Shown: positions 3,410-22,795 of the stretch, one piece after another
Position numbering within the stretch: the stretch's first letter is position 1
Layout of the letters: each line of letters starts with the position of its first letter
Assembly: GCA_012735215.1 (NCBI GenBank)
Contig: JAAYHX010000016.1
Coordinates: 1 to 64,000 of the forward strand
Direction of reading: 5' to 3'
Length of the DNA stretch: 64,000 bases
DNA from: Tissierellia bacterium
Lineage (GTDB): Bacteria > Bacillota > Clostridia > Tissierellales > Tepidimicrobiaceae
Made by a program: the position numbers and the translations under genes
Notes under the pieces: model-generated
Databases searched by the model: none
Told to the model about the DNA's origin: nothing
The model's input: the letters and a program-made list of their open reading frames with translations, nothing else

Positions 3410-4537
3410 ATGAGTGTAATATTTGAGAATCTACTAAATTTTAATGGGCAAATGCTAGTTATGTGGATTATAGGCGGAGTACTAATTTACCTAGCCATTA
3501 AGAAGGATATGGAACCAACCCTATTGTTGCCAATAGGTTTTGGAACTATATTGGTAAATTTACCTCTTTCTGGTGCTGTAACCCAAGTCATAGATGGAGT
3601 AAAAGAAATAGGAATCATTGATATATTATTCAATGCAGGTATTTCTAATGAATTGTTCCCCTTATTGCTCTTCATTGGAATTGGAGCCATGATAGATTTT
3701 ACACCTTTAATGACAAATCCAAAGATGTTATTTTTTGGTGCAGCTGCCCAGTTTGGAATCTTTTTTACATTTAGCTTAGCTTCTTTCTTTGGCTTTGATA
3801 TTAAGGATGCAGCCTCTATTGCAATCATAGGAGCTGCAGATGGCCCAACATCCATATTTGTAGCAAACTACTTTAATTCCAAGTATATTGGGGCTATTGT
3901 AGTAGCAGCCTATTCCTATATGGCCTTAGTTCCTATAATCCAGCCTTTTGTCATCAAAAAAATTACTACTAGAAAAGAACGGCTTATACGAATGGAGTAT
4001 TCAAGCCATTCAGTTCCCAAAACTGCTAAGATATTATTCCCAATAGTAGTTACTATAATCGCAGGACTTGTGGCACCTCGCTCAGTCGCCCTGATTGGAT
4101 TTTTAATGTTTGGAAATCTAATCAGAGAGTGTGGAGTTTTAAATTCCCTATCTGAAACTGCACAGAAAGAACTTGCTAACTTAATTACTATTTTCCTAGG
4201 AATAACCATAGCAACAAAGATGCAAGCAGAATACTTCTTAACTAGAGAAACCTTAATGATTTTGCTGCTTGGATTAGTTGCATTTATATTCGACACTGTT
4301 GGAGGAGTTTTATTTGCCAAGATATTAAACCTATTCATAAAAAACAAGATCAATCCAATGGTAGGTGCAGCTGGAATCTCTGCTTTTCCTATGTCAGCTA
4401 GGGTTATACACAAGATGGGCCTTAAGGAAGATCCACATAATTTCTTGTTGATGCATGCTGTAGGGGCTAATGTAGCTGGTCAAATAGGATCAGTAATTGC
4501 TGGAGGTATGATTATCAACCTAGTAAGCAACTTGTAG
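3410..4537 (+). CDS. Sodium-translocating decarboxylase beta subunit (OadB/GcdB/MmdB family)
   Basis: The 375-aa polytopic protein belongs to the beta subunit family of biotin-dependent Na+ pump decarboxylases, where it decarboxylates carboxybiotin and exports Na+. The hallmark GAADGPTSIFVANYF with the coupling Asp is present, as are the NAGISNELFPLLLFIGIGAMIDF and C-terminal HAVGANVAGQIGSVIAGG segments. The ribosome site is GGAGGG just before 3410. No carboxyltransferase (alpha) or biotin-carrier gene is present nearby. The only partner is the 43-aa membrane peptide encoded 41 bases downstream. The carboxyl substrate (oxaloacetate, glutaconyl-CoA or methylmalonyl-CoA) therefore cannot be assigned. 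Confidence 0.9.
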   Translation: MSVIFENLLNFNGQMLVMWIIGGVLIYLAIKKDMEPTLLLPIGFGTILVNLPLSGAVTQVIDGVKEIGIIDILFNAGISNELFPLLLFIGIGAMIDFTPLMTNPKMLFFGAAAQFGIFFTFSLASFFGFDIKDAASIAIIGAADGPTSIFVANYFNSKYIGAIVVAAYSYMALVPIIQPFVIKKITTRKERLIRMEYSSHSVPKTAKILFPIVVTIIAGLVAPRSVALIGFLMFGNLIRECGVLNSLSETAQKELANLITIFLGITIATKMQAEYFLTRETLMILLLGLVAFIFDTVGGVLFAKILNLFIKNKINPMVGAAGISAFPMSARVIHKMGLKEDPHNFLLMHAVGANVAGQIGSVIAGGMIINLVSNL

Positions 4538-17840: not shown

Positions 17841-18458
17841 ATGAAGAAGGTATATGTTGTACTAACAAGGACTAATACCTTAATATCAAGGTTAATTAGA
17901 TACTTCACCAAGGATCGATATACTCATGCTGCCATATCACTGGATTTAGACCTTAGACACATGTATAGCTTTGGAAGAAGATGGACTTATAATCCTTTTA
18001 TAGGTGGATTTAAACATGAATTTTTAGATCAGGGGGCATACAAGTTTTCTAAGCAATTACCTGGAGTAATTGTTGAGTTGAATGTGACAGAAGAGCAATA
18101 TATGAAAATAGAAAGTATATTAAACCAATTTATTAATAACCCAAAATATTATAAGTATAATTACTTAGGACTAATAAATAACATCATACATAAAGATACC
18201 TATTTTGCTAACAGGTTTTTGTGTTCAGAATTTGTTTACTATGTTCTTAATGAATGCCATGTAGTGAACTTTAATAAGCCGAGAAGCCTGGTAAGACCTC
18301 AAGACTTTCTAAATTTGGATGGAAGGATAATATATGAAGGAGATTTGAGAGAATTGGAGAATGTAGCAACTAATGCCATTCCCTCACCAAACCTATATTT
18401 TGGAATTATAGATGGAAAACTTGCTAAAAAGCTTGTTAATAAACTTGCTAGATTATAG
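17841..18458 (+). CDS. YiiX-like permuted papain-fold (NlpC/P60 superfamily) protein
   Basis: The 205-aa protein has the catalytic layout of the YiiX/YebB group: an N-terminal His in KDRYTHAAISLD (about residue 30) and a Cys in RFLCSEFVYYVLNE (about residue 130). It lacks a signal peptide or membrane helix. Members are thought to be amidases or lipid-binding hydrolases, and few have known function. The start follows AAAGGGGGG. The terminator hairpin overlaps its last codons. The ten-gene small-protein cluster begins about 170 bases later on the same strand. Confidence 0.75.
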   Translation: MKKVYVVLTRTNTLISRLIRYFTKDRYTHAAISLDLDLRHMYSFGRRWTYNPFIGGFKHEFLDQGAYKFSKQLPGVIVELNVTEEQYMKIESILNQFINNPKYYKYNYLGLINNIIHKDTYFANRFLCSEFVYYVLNECHVVNFNKPRSLVRPQDFLNLDGRIIYEGDLRELENVATNAIPSPNLYFGIIDGKLAKKLVNKLARL

Positions 18459-18472: not shown

Positions 18473-18629
18473 GCCCAAAAACCTAAGAACAGGAGGGCAA
18501 ATTGTATTCTCAAGGGTCATCTTTTACATAAATCCAACAATTATATGGAATCTAGAAAAATAATCAATAATAGTAGCATAAGTGGTGTACATGCATATTA
18601 TGTATTAGGACAAGAGGAGGTGAAATTAA

Positions 18630-18785
18630 GTGGCAGACAGAATATATGCTTCTATAGTTAACCAAAAAACTGTAACTCAAATTCAACTTCAAGTACTAAC
18701 AATTATAGCAGCTCAAGTAGCTGATGTAATTGAAGCTCAACTAGGAGTAACTTTACAATTTGATGATGATTTAATTGATGTCTAA
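18630..18785 (+). CDS. 51-aa small protein, first copy of a tandem pair
   Basis: The GTG start at 18630 follows AGGAGGTG (18615-18622). The 51-aa product begins ADRIYASIVNQK and ends QFDDDLIDV. Its middle is a Gln-rich amphipathic stretch (TVTQIQLQVLTIIAAQ) and its C-terminus is acidic. It is about 80 percent identical to the next protein by direct comparison. No signal peptide or motif of known function is present. The alternation of Gln/Thr and aliphatic residues suggests strand-forming, self-assembling protein. It vaguely recalls CotX/CotV repeat domains of Bacillus spore crust, but this is only thematic. Family unknown. Confidence 0.7.
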   Translation: MADRIYASIVNQKTVTQIQLQVLTIIAAQVADVIEAQLGVTLQFDDDLIDV

Positions 18786-18821
18786 TAACAAATAGTGAGC
18801 ACCAAAATGGAGGTGAAATAT

Positions 18822-18977
18822 ATGGCAGATAGAATTTTTGCATCAGTTATCAATCAAAAGACTGTAACACAAGTTCAACTACAAGTATTAACAATTATAG
18901 CAGCACAAATAGCAAGCGTAATTGAAGCTCAATTAGGAATTACAGCACAGTTTGATGATGATTTGATTGATTTATAG
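18822..18977 (+). CDS. 51-aa small protein, second copy of the tandem pair
   Basis: ATG 18822 follows GGAGGTG; an upstream in-frame ATG at 18795 would include the ribosome site. The 51-aa protein mirrors its neighbour (ADRIFASVINQK... QFDDDLIDL), differing at about ten mostly conservative positions. Nucleotide divergence at third positions is high while the protein is conserved, which shows selection and confirms both as genes. A GGGGGG/CCCCCC hairpin follows. Function unknown. Confidence 0.75.
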   Translation: MADRIFASVINQKTVTQVQLQVLTIIAAQIASVIEAQLGITAQFDDDLIDL

Positions 18978-18987
18978 AAGTAAAAAC

Positions 18988-19018
18988 AAGGGGGGTCTCC
19001 CCCCTTTAGATAGATTTT
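18988..19018 (+). terminator. GC-rich hairpin after the tandem pair
   Basis: AAGGGGGG and CCCCCCTT pair around TCT (18988-19006). The T-rich tail (ATTTTTA) is a few bases away, so termination may be partial. Confidence 0.5.
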
Positions 19019-19059
19019 TATCCTGGTGAAATAAAATTAAACAGAGAGGGGAGAGATAG

Positions 19060-19281
19060 GTGAAGATTGGATTCAATAAAGATGGGCTGACATTAAATTC
19101 TAAGAAGTTTCATCCATTAAATTTTAAAACAAAAAATATTTCATTAGAATCAGACATACCAGCTAACGGTGTTGATGCTTTAGAAGTATTATCTGCATTC
19201 CAACAAGGACCAAAACTAAAGAATGTTAGCAGAGAGGATGGAATAAAGGTATTAATATCTATGCTAGAAAAGATTAAATAA
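19060..19281 (+). CDS. 73-aa small protein of unknown function
   Basis: The GTG start at 19060 follows GAGGGGAGAG. The product is basic at the N-terminus (KIGFNKDGLTLNSKKFHPLNF) and ends in an amphipathic helix (REDGIKVLISMLEKI). It is soluble, without cysteine, and not recognised. It follows the tandem pair by 80 bases and is itself followed by a strong terminator, closing the first sub-operon of the cluster. Confidence 0.65.
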   Translation: MKIGFNKDGLTLNSKKFHPLNFKTKNISLESDIPANGVDALEVLSAFQQGPKLKNVSREDGIKVLISMLEKIK

Positions 19282-19289
19282 GATAAGTT

Positions 19290-19327
19290 AGCTACCTCAA
19301 AAGGATTATATTTTGAGGTAGCTTTTT
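19290..19327 (+). terminator. Strong terminator inside the small-gene cluster
   Basis: A 13-bp perfect stem, AGCTACCTCAAAA (19290-19302) with its complement (19311-19323), is followed by TTTT. It divides the cluster into two transcripts. Confidence 0.85.
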
Positions 19328-19340
19328 ATATGAACCATAA

Positions 19341-19359
19341 ATCTTATGTTACATAAGAT
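19341..19359. promoter_or_regulatory. 19-bp perfect palindrome upstream of the second small-gene transcript
   Basis: ATCTTATGT-T-ACATAAGAT is fully symmetrical and lies 35 bases before the next start codon, where the promoter must be. It is likely an operator, or part of a promoter recognised by a sporulation sigma factor (it contains CATA). Regulator unknown. Confidence 0.5.
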
Positions 19360-19393
19360 ATTAGTAGAAAAAGTAAGATAGGGGGCATTATTT

Positions 19394-19561
19394 ATGTCAA
19401 AGCAAGCAGAGAATTCACTATCTATAAAAAAAGATAAGGGTACATTTATGGGAGCCAAGGTTGCTAATCAGATAAATACCAATCAGCAATCAAACATGTG
19501 TCTTACTCAGTTGAGTGTTGTTACCCAAAATTCATCAACAGTTAACATCAGCTTAGCATAA
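19394..19561 (+). CDS. 55-aa Asn/Gln/Ser-rich small protein
   Basis: ATG 19394 follows AGATAGGGGG. The N-terminus is polar and charged (SKQAENSLSIKKDKG). The C-terminal half is rich in Asn, Gln, Ser and Thr (ANQINTNQQSNM, VVTQNSSTVNISLA). The segment ANQxNxxx...LTQLSVV resembles SNQANxxx...LxQFNIV and IQLNAVFV in two later proteins of the cluster, suggesting a shared domain. The TAA overlaps the next ribosome site, so the genes are co-translated. Unknown family. Confidence 0.65.
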   Translation: MSKQAENSLSIKKDKGTFMGAKVANQINTNQQSNMCLTQLSVVTQNSSTVNISLA

Positions 19562-19574
19562 GGAGGGGTTAGTA

Positions 19575-19883
19575 ATGGTGACAGATAAGAAGCAGGGCAA
19601 TGAATGGATTAAGCTTAAGCTGAACAAGAAAGATGAAAGTATACCAAGAGAAATTAGAATTGACTATGATGGCCATGTATATATGGATGGTGAACTATAT
19701 GATGAAGAAAAATCAAAATATAGCAATTTAAGTATAGACGTAGAGCAGCATAATAGAATGAGTTCTGGAGAGGAAACAAGACGGATAATTGAGCTGAGCA
19801 AGGAAGCTAAGAAAGGAGAAACCATTACAGTAAAGGATGAAAGGGGTCCAGACAGAAGGGAAACTACCACTGTTAAATTTTAA
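19575..19883 (+). CDS. 102-aa highly charged small protein
   Basis: The gene starts 13 bases after the previous stop behind AAGGAGGGG. The soluble product is rich in Lys, Glu, Asp and Arg. It has a short strand-turn-strand core (IPREIRIDYDGHVYMDGELYDE) and a C-terminal helix plus strands ending ETTTVKF. There are no cysteines or membrane segments. Not recognised. It sits in a run of genes with near-zero spacing, so it is probably made in step with its neighbours. Confidence 0.65.
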   Translation: MVTDKKQGNEWIKLKLNKKDESIPREIRIDYDGHVYMDGELYDEEKSKYSNLSIDVEQHNRMSSGEETRRIIELSKEAKKGETITVKDERGPDRRETTTVKF

Positions 19884-19896
19884 AGGGGGTATTTGT

Positions 19897-20115
19897 TTGG
19901 AACATAAAAATATGGAAAAGCATGATCAAATAAATAGTGATTATTATGTTAATAGATTTATTACAAAGGAGACAGAGTTAACTATAAACATAAAAAAGAT
20001 GAAGAATCCTGCTTATTTATTAGAGCAATTATATCTATTGAAACAGAAGGATGAATTGAGCGATGATGAAAAAAACGAAGAAGTAAGGAAGATAATGTCT
20101 GATTATATGAGGTGA
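19897..20115 (+). CDS. 72-aa charged small protein, TTG start
   Basis: A TTG at 19897 is preferred because AAAGGGGG ends eight bases upstream; an earlier in-frame start (19837) lies inside the preceding gene. The protein begins EHKNMEKHDQINSDYYVN and ends in a helical acidic segment (QKDELSDDEKNEEVRKIMSDYM). A middle part (AYLLEQLYLLKQ) is leucine-rich and may mediate pairing. Its final bases overlap the ribosome site of the next gene. Unknown function. Confidence 0.6.
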   Translation: MEHKNMEKHDQINSDYYVNRFITKETELTINIKKMKNPAYLLEQLYLLKQKDELSDDEKNEEVRKIMSDYMR

Positions 20116-20120
20116 TTCAT

Positions 20121-20393
20121 TTGGATGGAAAAATCAAACACTCACTATCAGTTAACCTGTCCAACCAAGCTAATACTTTTAAATGTATAAAGGCAAATCT
20201 AGGCCAATTTAACATAGTAGCAATCTTAGGATTGGAATATTTATATGAGAAAGACCCAATTAATAAAATCCCTATTTCCATTGATGTAGATAGAGACTGG
20301 AACCTTTCAATAGAAGGATTAGATAAGAACATAATAGATGAAGAGAATATATGTATATATACGGACAAAAAAGTGACTAAGAGTGATGAGTAA
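20121..20393 (+). CDS. 90-aa small protein with SNQAN...FNIV motif
   Basis: TTG 20121 is chosen because AGGTGA (20110-20115) is well placed. A GTG at 20112 overlaps that site but cannot be excluded. Residues 8-35 (LSVNLSNQANTF, NLGQFNIVAIL) align with the following protein (FMINASNQANLS, SPIQLNAVFVLV) and loosely with the 55-aa protein upstream. An acidic beta-rich second half (ISIDVDRDWNLSIEGLD) also has a counterpart downstream. The two are likely paralogues. Function unknown. Confidence 0.65.
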   Translation: MDGKIKHSLSVNLSNQANTFKCIKANLGQFNIVAILGLEYLYEKDPINKIPISIDVDRDWNLSIEGLDKNIIDEENICIYTDKKVTKSDE

Positions 20394-20421
20394 ATAAGAA
20401 TCTTCTCTGGAGGCGATAGTA

Positions 20422-20736
20422 TTGGAAGATAAAAATCAAAACCAATTTGTAGAAGAGGTTTTAGATAGTGATGATACTAGAATATATAATTTCATGATAA
20501 ACGCTTCAAATCAAGCAAATCTGTCAAGAAGCAACAACCTTTCTCCCATTCAATTAAATGCTGTATTTGTGCTAGTAAACCCTTATTATATGGAACAATT
20601 TAATATTGAAGACTTGGATTTGAATTTAAAAGTAGATGAGGAAGGGGTTATAAGAATTAATAATAAGAACTACGAGATGCTAGAAATTGAACCAGGAATT
20701 AAGATCTTTGGAGTATCCAAATTGAAGGAGTGTTGA
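20422..20736 (+). CDS. 104-aa paralogue of the preceding small protein
   Basis: TTG 20422 follows CTGGAGG. The 104-aa product carries an acidic N-tail (EDKNQNQFVEEVLDSDD), then the paired motif NASNQANLSRSNNLSPIQLN and strands ending GVIRINNKNYEMLEIEPGIKIF. The same order of motif, hydrophobic strand and Asp-rich strand is seen in the upstream neighbour. Its stop TGA lies three bases before the next GTG start, implying coupling. Not assigned to a family. Confidence 0.65.
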   Translation: MEDKNQNQFVEEVLDSDDTRIYNFMINASNQANLSRSNNLSPIQLNAVFVLVNPYYMEQFNIEDLDLNLKVDEEGVIRINNKNYEMLEIEPGIKIFGVSKLKEC

Positions 20737-20738
20737 CT

Positions 20739-20960
20739 GTGAAAAAAGAAAGATTTAATAGAAGAAAGCTATATGAAGTTCTTACTCCAGAAGAAAAGGT
20801 CTTATATGAAAAGGTGCTAAATGATATAGCAAAAAATGAAGAATTTTACGCAACTAGTACTGCTGAAGAGATAACAGCCCATCTGGTGGATGAGTGTGGC
20901 TTTGATAAAGAGGCTATTTATAAATTATTCAAGAAAATTACTAGGATTTACGGGGAGTGA
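20739..20960 (+). CDS. 73-aa helical small protein
   Basis: GTG 20739 is preceded by AAGGAG at 20725-20730; an in-frame GTG at 20730 overlaps that site. The product is all-helical and charged (NRRKLYEVLTPEEKVLYEKVLNDIA, then TAEEITAHLVDECGFDKEAIYKLFKKITRIYGE). Its EEITAHLVDECGFDKEAIYKLF looks like a small winged-helix or four-helix unit, but no family is recognised. The stop overlaps the ribosome site of the last cluster gene. Confidence 0.65.
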   Translation: MKKERFNRRKLYEVLTPEEKVLYEKVLNDIAKNEEFYATSTAEEITAHLVDECGFDKEAIYKLFKKITRIYGE

Positions 20961-20965
20961 TAGGA

Positions 20966-21274
20966 TTGGACTACTATTTCAACCGAATAACAGAATCAAC
21001 TGATGATAGATATTTGGATGAATCAACAAAAGAAGAGGAATTGATAAATGAAGAATCTGAAATGGGGGATGGGGAGGATATTAATGAAAGTGATGAAAGA
21101 GATGAAGTTGAACAAAAGGAAGAAAGCATGGATGAAGAAGTTGAAGAAGACATTGAAAAGAAAGAATTGGAAGATAAAAAAATAGGAGGAGATGGGAAAG
21201 GTACAGCTCTTGAACTTTCAGTAAATATATTAGATCAATTGTTAAAGATATATAAAAGTAAAAAAGGGAATTAA
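20966..21274 (+). CDS. 102-aa very acidic low-complexity protein, last gene of the cluster
   Basis: TTG 20966 follows GGGGAG with good spacing; GTG 20957 is an alternative. After a short head (DYYFNRITEST), about 60 residues are almost wholly Glu, Asp, Ser and Lys (for example EEELINEESEMGDGEDINES). A conserved-looking C-terminal helix follows (GTALELSVNILDQLLKIYKSKK). The acidic linker plus terminal helix suggests a flexible tether or an adaptor. A strong terminator follows. No known family. Confidence 0.65.
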   Translation: MDYYFNRITESTDDRYLDESTKEEELINEESEMGDGEDINESDERDEVEQKEESMDEEVEEDIEKKELEDKKIGGDGKGTALELSVNILDQLLKIYKSKKGN

Positions 21275-21280
21275 ACACTT

Positions 21281-21327
21281 AAAAGCTCTTTTCTAACTAA
21301 ATACATAGTTGAAAAGAGCTTTTGTTT
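21281..21327 (+). terminator. Terminator ending the small-gene cluster
   Basis: AAAAGCTCTTTTC (21281-21293) pairs perfectly with GAAAAGAGCTTTT (21311-21323), then GTTTTAT. Confidence 0.9.
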
Positions 21328-21978: not shown

Positions 21979-22005
21979 AAGCCCTTTAAAAAAGGGCTTA
22001 ATTCA
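21979..22005. terminator. Bidirectional terminator
   Basis: AAGCCCTTT (21979-21987) and AAAGGGCTT (21991-21999) pair between convergent mntP and the DnaJ-like gene. Confidence 0.75.
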
Positions 22006-22795
22006 TTTTATTATATCTTTCCATGTTATTGTCGCTTAAAAACTCATAGGCACTATTTATTTTTTGAAACATTTCCGTTGCATTGGGGGATTGATTTAAG
22101 TCTGGATGGTACTCTTTTGCTTTTTTCCTATAGGCTAATTTTATTTGATACTTATCAGCATTGTAAGGAACACCTAATATATCGCAACTTTCTTCGTATT
22201 TCTTCTTAAATTCCAATGTGGGATTGTTGTAGGTATACTTCTCATATCCGGTATAATTTCCATACCCACTGTAACTATAGTCTCCATAATTGCTCTGACT
22301 ATTTTGGTATTCTTGCCACATTCTAAATCTTTCTTCCCACTGTCTCCAAATTTCTTCCTGCTTTCTTTGCTGTTCTCTTTTTCGCCTTGCTTCTTGTTCT
22401 CGTCGGTATTTATTTCCGTATTCTGAAAATGAGGCATATTTGCTGTTAGTACCGTAGATCAAATAATTAGCTCTATCAAAAAGGTATTCCGTTACCATGT
22501 ATTGAATGTATTTCAAAAAGGATACAAATTTAGTGCCTAGGATTGGGAATATCATTAAAAAAAGCAGAGGAAATAATATAATTGGGTTTAACAGAAAATA
22601 TAGACCAAAAGGCCCTGCAAACATAAAAAATAGTAAGCAGCCTCCCATGCCTACAAGAGCGGCAAAACCTCCAGCAATGGCTCTAGTCACATTAACAGAA
22701 AAAGAGACAATAGCTATGATTATATCAAATACAGTAGAAATAATATTCGTAATAGCATACAATAGTTTACCTGCAATCTTTTTAATACCCTTCAT
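21998..22795 (-). CDS. Membrane-anchored J-domain protein
   Basis: The 265-aa protein has two or three hydrophobic segments in its first 110 residues. A basic, Gln/Arg-rich linker (YRREQEARRKREQQRKQEEIWRQWEER style) and a Tyr/Gly/Ser-rich spacer follow. A C-terminal J domain (about 200-265) carries the essential HPD tripeptide in AKEYHPDLNQ. J domains stimulate DnaK ATPase, so this probably recruits DnaK to the membrane. C-terminal placement of the J domain is the reverse of DnaJ, so it is not the general chaperone. Its partner is unknown. Confidence 0.85.
   Translation of the reverse strand: MKGIKKIAGKLLYAITNIISTVFDIIIAIVSFSVNVTRAIAGGFAALVGMGGCLLFFMFAGPFGLYFLLNPIILFPLLFLMIFPILGTKFVSFLKYIQYMVTEYLFDRANYLIYGTNSKYASFSEYGNKYRREQEARRKREQQRKQEEIWRQWEERFRMWQEYQNSQSNYGDYSYSGYGNYTGYEKYTYNNPTLEFKKKYEESCDILGVPYNADKYQIKLAYRKKAKEYHPDLNQSPNATEMFQKINSAYEFLSDNNMERYNKMN

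Follow-up and report, generated by a model that had tools for sequence, protein, structure and literature searches.

The window analysed here, the whole 64,000-nucleotide stretch of Tissierellia bacterium DNA (NCBI GenBank assembly GCA_012735215.1, contig JAAYHX010000016.1), comes from a genome of 1.89 Mb, 99% complete, in which it is contig C5. At 18630-21274 on its + strand lie ten small genes, named g1 to g10, which are the subject of this report. An earlier note, made from the sequence alone, had described them as small co-directional genes with a tandem pair and a tightly packed downstream run, and this description held: all ten open reading frames (ORFs) were confirmed, although the start codons of some are a choice between two candidates. 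With the starts chosen here, neighbouring genes in the run from g4 to g10 are separated by 2-28 bases, and the gaps upstream of g4 are wider.

The tandem pair consists of g1 (18630..18785) and g2 (18822..18977), which are identical at 121 of 153 bases and each code for an NQK-motif protein of 51 amino acids (aa); in the order-level alignment g2 has 53-88% identity with the other 15 rows. They are followed by g3 (19060..19281, 73 aa), with a GFxKDGLxxNSKKxxPLN motif and orthologues at the same position elsewhere, and by g4 (19394..19561, 55 aa), with the motif NQINTNQQSNMxLSAYSVVTQ and a weak profile similarity to g1. The product of g5 (19575..19883, 102 aa) contains a hairpin-like stretch of 24-25 residues in common with those of g7 (20121..20393, 90 aa, LSNQANT motif) and g8 (20422..20736, 104 aa, NASNQANL motif), the latter two being paralogues. 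Both g7 and g8 start with TTG, as do g6 (19897..20115, 72 aa) and g10 (20966..21274, 102 aa), while g9 (20739..20960, 73 aa) starts with GTG. The g9 orthologues of five loci from other families (L051, L052, L070, L083 and L084) have an N-terminal CxxC...CxxxH putative zinc ribbon which the window copy lacks, and the ten proteins of the window contain 0-2 cysteines each. The g10 protein consists of 35% Asp+Glu and has a short LxxLxxIY-like C-terminal end; its position and acidic make-up are conserved across loci, its sequence weakly. Larger acidic proteins of 201-343 aa occupy the g10 position in L052 (5540-6571), L070 (3825-4727) and L071 (4401-5006); on visual inspection the L052 and L070 proteins end in a g10-like manner, and those of L070 and L071 carry repeated MNRIxCxNxPYxP-like motifs.

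An intrinsic terminator, a hairpin with a T run, follows g3 (19290..19323, + strand, z -5.55), and a terminator hairpin that is not in the pattern-scan list of terminators follows g10 (21280..21324, + strand, z -6.75). The G+C hairpin after g2 (18988..19006, + strand, z -1.8) is weak as a terminator and is not listed as one on this strand. Since the hairpins with large z lie 3' of g3 and g10, the most natural division of the block would be into the transcription units g1-g3 (perhaps g1-g2 and g3) and g4-g10, which agrees with the two terminators and two transcripts that had been suggested earlier.

Promoter-like sites upstream of g4 and g1

The putative promoter of g4-g10 is a sigma-K-type site at 19334..19360 (+ strand) with the form AC-N16-CATAAGATA. 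In C. difficile, sigma-E and sigma-K promoters have a common -10 element and differ at -35, ATA versus AC (PMC3789822); for B. subtilis the sigma-K consensus is published as two elements, of 5 and 10 bases, with a spacing of 15 +/- 1 (PMC517825). Sites were here defined by the relaxed pattern AC-N16/17-CATAnnnT[A/G], the strict form of which ends in A, and were counted in a set of 14 loci that leaves out L021 (near-identical to L020) as well as L019 and L022 (cut by contig ends). The relaxed site precedes g4 in 12 of the 14 loci, where it begins 56 to 74 bases upstream of the start codon, while 300 sets of Markov shuffles gave a mean of 0.08 loci and a maximum of 1; the strict site is found at g4 in 8/14 loci (shuffle 0.05). 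At g1 the full site occurs in its relaxed form in 6/14 and in its strict form in 3/14 loci (strict shuffle 0.12), and the -10 part in 12/14. Across the 17 whole loci, which comprise 448 kb of strand, there are 51 relaxed sites, 24 of which have an ORF of at least 40 codons with a ribosome site 15-120 bases further downstream. Twenty of the 24 stand at g1 or g4, three at a CsxA-like neighbour gene described below and one at an unrelated gene. Taken as sequences, the sites of the cluster appear to be of the kind that defines promoters of the sigma-K regulon (AC at -35, a CATAnnnTA-like -10 and about 16-17 bases between them).

The region upstream of g1 in the window contains a conserved element, TGTACATGCATATTATGTA (18586..18604, + strand), which forms a near-palindrome over a CATAnnnTG -10-like box, with no AC at the -35 distance. 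When up to two edits are allowed, the element TGTACATGCATAnTATGTA is found in 10 of the 17 loci (two of the ten belonging to near-identical strains), in each case upstream of g1 and at no other place there, and the own genome has a single exact copy. The near-palindrome may be an operator for a regulator.

Conservation and co-occurrence with sporulation

Relatives of the block were sought with g8. Among 41 related genomes, the own genome included, 11 matches were obtained at E <= 0.01, and ten after dropping G029 (E 0.005), a chance match that did not recur in the g8 profile search of the order. The latter gave 16 matches in 249 genomes, of which 15, from five families, were accepted; the sixteenth (G188, E 7.8e-4) was read as chance, its locus L053 holding no other cluster gene. 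The five matches in 391 genomes drawn from the class were the own genome, three new genomes from two further families, and a chance match in G361 (E 0.006); the ORF hit there codes for a membrane protein, the other cluster genes are missing from its locus L073, and the genome has no SpoIVA. The three matches in 398 genomes drawn from the phylum were the own genome and two new genomes outside the class (G704 and G978), from another two families. A second place in the own genome, on contig C8 (E 0.25), was rejected, as no profile match was found in L030. The cluster is accordingly counted in 20 genomes, nine families and at least two classes.

Gene order was inspected at one locus for each of the 20 genomes and is constant as (g1)n, g3, [g1]n, g4, g5, g6, g7, g8, g9, with one to four g1 copies per locus; the more distant loci have one or two of these between g3 and g4. 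Exceptions arise where a contig end interrupts the locus (G226, G005 and G015), in two metagenome assemblies with a broken g5 and truncated g3 (G002, L023) or with a g8 that lacks its usual start (G012, L025), in G227 (L054), where g5-g7 are missing and g4 and g8 are truncated, and in G481 (L072), whose g1 copies have diverged strongly and where g9 has no match. In L054 the truncated g4 and g8 adjoin at 3640-3922, through a deletion or an assembly fault. Apart from these, the genes are found together and in one order, so the possibility raised in the earlier note, that the arrangement would dissolve in related genomes, did not materialise. The ratio of non-synonymous to synonymous differences (pN/pS) is 0.10-0.46 in eight gene families, from three to four locus pairs each and with g10 not included, and by this measure the eight families are under purifying selection. 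The like order of g1-g9 orthologues in distant genomes, together with these ratios, indicates that the cluster is more than a chance assembly. The number of g1 copies seems to shift on a short time scale, since [Clostridium] ultunense DSM 10521 has two (L020, 4200-4545) and Clostridium sp. Cult1 has one (L021, 4393-4545) within surrounding DNA that is 98-99.9% identical.

The sporulation protein SpoIVA (TIGR02836) was detected in 91 of the 249 genomes of the order, a set that includes every one of the 15 cluster genomes counted there (Fisher p 1.3e-7, a value that ignores kinship). With the three cluster genomes from the class (3/3), the tested cluster genomes that carry SpoIVA number 18 out of 18, and on these genome sequences there is good evidence for a link of the cluster to sporulation. 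The spoIVA gene of G481 is apparently split (C7:20158-27900), with model positions 2-405 and 399-492 on the same strand about 6 kb apart, and looks as if an element had been inserted.

Protein families, paralogy and neighbouring genes

The earlier note had recognised no family among the ten proteins, and the profile searches led to the same result. For none of g1-g10 did Pfam or NCBIfam give a match that passes the cut-off (the best had E 0.0083 and 0.0039), and g2-g10 have sub-threshold matches at most in PADLOC. Profile searches of the PDB with g1, g5, g7 and g9 gave nothing credible; a match of g5 to Mago nashi (E 0.6) and those of g9 (best E 0.04, to a designed protein by its name) were read as chance. 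Within the cluster, g7 and g8 are homologous (hhalign probability 94.6-96%, with 0/60 column shuffles reaching 96%). The stretch IPxxIxIDxxGxVxIxG connects both of them to g5 over 24-25 columns, at 22% for g8-g5 and 19% for g7-g5 (0/60 column shuffles each), and the g1-g4 comparison gives 23% over 27 columns, a value reached by 0/60 column shuffles. The comparisons of g7-g4 (7/60), g8-g4 (32/60), g1-g8 (7/60) and g1-g7 (8/60) did not rise above the shuffles. A single NQ-motif superfamily made up of g1, g4, g7 and g8 is therefore not supported, the tested links between g1/g4 and g7/g8 being within the shuffle range.

Beyond the end of the cluster, three loci in two families (L051, L070 and L071) contain two further genes, with products of 214-281 aa and 447-512 aa. 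The larger has sub-threshold matches to Pfam BNR repeats in L051 and L070, and the neighbours of these two loci are homologous (E 1e-9 for the smaller and 5e-22 for the BNR-like protein). The smaller is the CsxA-like neighbour, of exosporium type, and in all three loci its gene is preceded by a sigma-K-type site. Its 214-aa family was found in 27 of the 41 relatives, namely in 26 of the 32 with SpoIVA and in one of the nine without, an 80% complete genome (Fisher 2.4e-4). In two genomes of the order the CsxA-like domain is part of proteins of about 1040 aa that also have three DUF4183 stretches and DUF11 (L085, 2496-5615; L086, 2996-6136). Judged from their domains these proteins resemble F-Anchor-3, an architecture whose remaining domain is termed CsxA-like in the published description (PMC11952670), and it is from this domain company, not from a comparison with CsxA, that the 214-aa family takes its name here. 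A further ORF of 2602 aa (L087, 509-8314) combines eleven DUF11 stretches with a C-terminal CsxA-like domain. PDB searches with the CsxA-like neighbours gave nothing credible, and no CsxA-like gene was found within the 11 kb fetched for L083 and L084.

The cluster can be compared with several known systems. CsxA itself is, like the proposed products of the cluster, a spore-surface protein of Clostridia, and CsxA-like genes lie beside the cluster in three loci; it is a single protein of 33 kDa with 25 cysteines, whereas the cluster codes for ten small, cysteine-poor proteins. Subunits of about 10 kDa on spores of Bacilli and Clostridia are reported for F-ENA (DUF4183) in the same publication (PMC11952670). 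None of g1-g10 matched DUF4183 (PF13799), a model with which members were detected in other proteins of the order. The CotX/CotV proteins of the Bacillus coat and crust are short, Gln-rich, hydrophobic spore-surface proteins and in this respect similar to the cluster proteins. No match to their family PF07552 was present among 16 g1-family members at E <= 10, and none over the cut-off in the 41 relatives, with a positive B. subtilis control. Gene clusters for small proteins with paralogues are also a feature of R-bodies, whose proteins self-assemble; RebB (PF11747) had no match in the Pfam scans of g1-g10 and of the 16 g1-family members, nor in the own genome, in a search whose controls gave no match either. 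Judged by family models (CotX/CotV, F-ENA) and cysteine content (CsxA), the cluster is not a recognisable member of any of these three. No description of it was found among the titles and abstract openings listed by searches of open-access literature, which does not prove it unpublished, and no cluster protein could be mapped from passages of a Moorella spore paper (PMC8745062).

A candidate spore-surface structure and its alternatives

Our favoured reading, which we consider probable, is that the cluster serves, late in the mother cell, to build a structure of the spore surface that is poor in cysteine. The genes would be expressed in the mother cell late in sporulation from the sigma-K-type promoter before g4 and, in part of the loci, from a similar promoter before g1. 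The products would be cysteine-poor structural proteins laid on the exterior of the forespore as coat, exosporium or surface appendage. In such a structure the short g1/g2 proteins, with one to four copies, would be the abundant repeating subunits, and g4, possibly a distant relative of g1, would start or cap them. The g7/g8 pair together with g5 may form a mixed adaptor, with g3, g6 and g9 as assembly partners, and g10, an acidic and probably disordered protein with a short C-terminal end, would tether the structure to other parts of the spore surface. The late mother-cell timing is derived from the promoter type, the surface location from the CsxA-like neighbours, from a distribution of accessory type and from the absence of enzyme families, and the proposed subunit roles from copy number, paralogy and composition. 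In vivo timing, surface location, assembly and the individual roles are thus what we infer. The earlier idea of a spore-surface or other assembled structure gained its link to the spore from SpoIVA in 18/18 genomes, the g4 sites in 12/14 loci and the CsxA-like neighbours in three; its part concerning surface and assembly is still inference. It is conceivable, though we would not wager on it, that the cluster specifies an undescribed sheath or appendage, co-assembled without disulfides from several small, partly paralogous proteins (g1/g2 with g4; g7/g8 with g5) and dedicated adaptors, and distinct both from the cysteine-rich lattices of CsxA and CotY/ExsY and from the ENA pili.

Several observations weigh against the spore-surface reading. 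The relaxed last base of the promoter pattern was picked after viewing the alignment, and 27 of the 51 sites have no ORF of the kind described downstream. The g4 site is absent from L052 and L072 and from the most distant loci, L083 and L084, both from the phylum search, and in L083 g1, too, is without a full site. The window's own g1 has the -10-like box alone, and a full g1 site is confined to the six loci given above. The exosporium lattice proteins known so far are cysteine-rich, which the products of the cluster are not. The AlphaFold models of g8 and g5 are too poor to assign a fold (mean predicted local distance difference test, pLDDT, 57.6 and 57.4); that of g8 is beta-rich at low confidence, and the two models together suggest at most a beta tendency. 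The SpoIVA counts cover 18 of the 20 cluster genomes, those of the order and the class. No CsxA-like match was obtained in the genome of the window at E <= 0.001, so that in some genomes at least the structure must do without that protein. Finally, an accepted g8 match (E <= 0.001) is lacking in 76 of the order's 91 genomes with SpoIVA, which makes the cluster an accessory of sporulation. Outer spore layers are often accessory.

Of the other explanations, the one that survives best is that the cluster is linked to sporulation and its products act inside the mother cell or the spore, for instance in a storage body or in a germination or maturation complex. The promoters and the co-occurrence bear on timing and lineage only, no protein of the cluster matches a coat family, and a CwlD-like amidase lies near the g1 end in L070 (a sub-cut-off match), with another seen by eye in L052. 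We nevertheless hold this explanation to be unlikely, given the CsxA-like neighbour with the same type of site in three loci, the patchy spread among spore formers and the changing copy number of the shortest subunit.

It is far less plausible that these bacteria carry the cluster as a structural or defence module of mobile or phage origin. When four neighbour genes of the window were tested, only a DnaJ-domain gene (in L022, L024 and L026) and the gene at 17841 (in L026) were found near other copies of the cluster, the other two being absent from the stretches fetched around those copies, and this would fit a module that moves. The DnaJ-domain protein is encoded on the opposite strand at 21998-22795 and has a hydrophobic N-terminal part. 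PtuB is an HNH nuclease, and g5 has a weak PADLOC match to it (E 0.00039, 18 bits); the match was rejected because L070 and L071 lack the sole histidine that the first nine sequences of the order have in common, which makes a nuclease site in g5 unlikely. Against a mobile origin also speak the search of viral contigs for relatives of g5 (112 candidate stretches, 0 confirmed), the search of plasmids, in which none was found, the PHROGs comparison of g2-g10, without a match at E <= 0.01, and the presence of SpoIVA and of sigma-K-type sites.

An ordinary vegetative promoter, with the CATA-type sites as products of chance in AT-rich DNA, would suit the 38 sigma-70-like sites in 5.4 kb (shuffles 28.2, standard deviation 5.4) and the CATA-type sites without an ORF behind them, but is hardly credible in view of the sites at one place before g4, far above the shuffle mean, and of the 23 out of 24 ORF-linked sites that stand before g1, g4 or the CsxA-like gene.

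Spore surfaces govern sticking, spread, resistance and germination, and to our knowledge their parts list is poorly known beyond a few model species and pathogens. A block of ten genes from unnamed families, ordered alike across nine families of bacteria and mostly placed behind sigma-K-type sites, offers concrete candidates for spore-surface proteins, with [Clostridium] ultunense DSM 10521 as a carrier among named strains. If the proposed surface location is correct, the cluster would work like an assembly module of the spore envelope.

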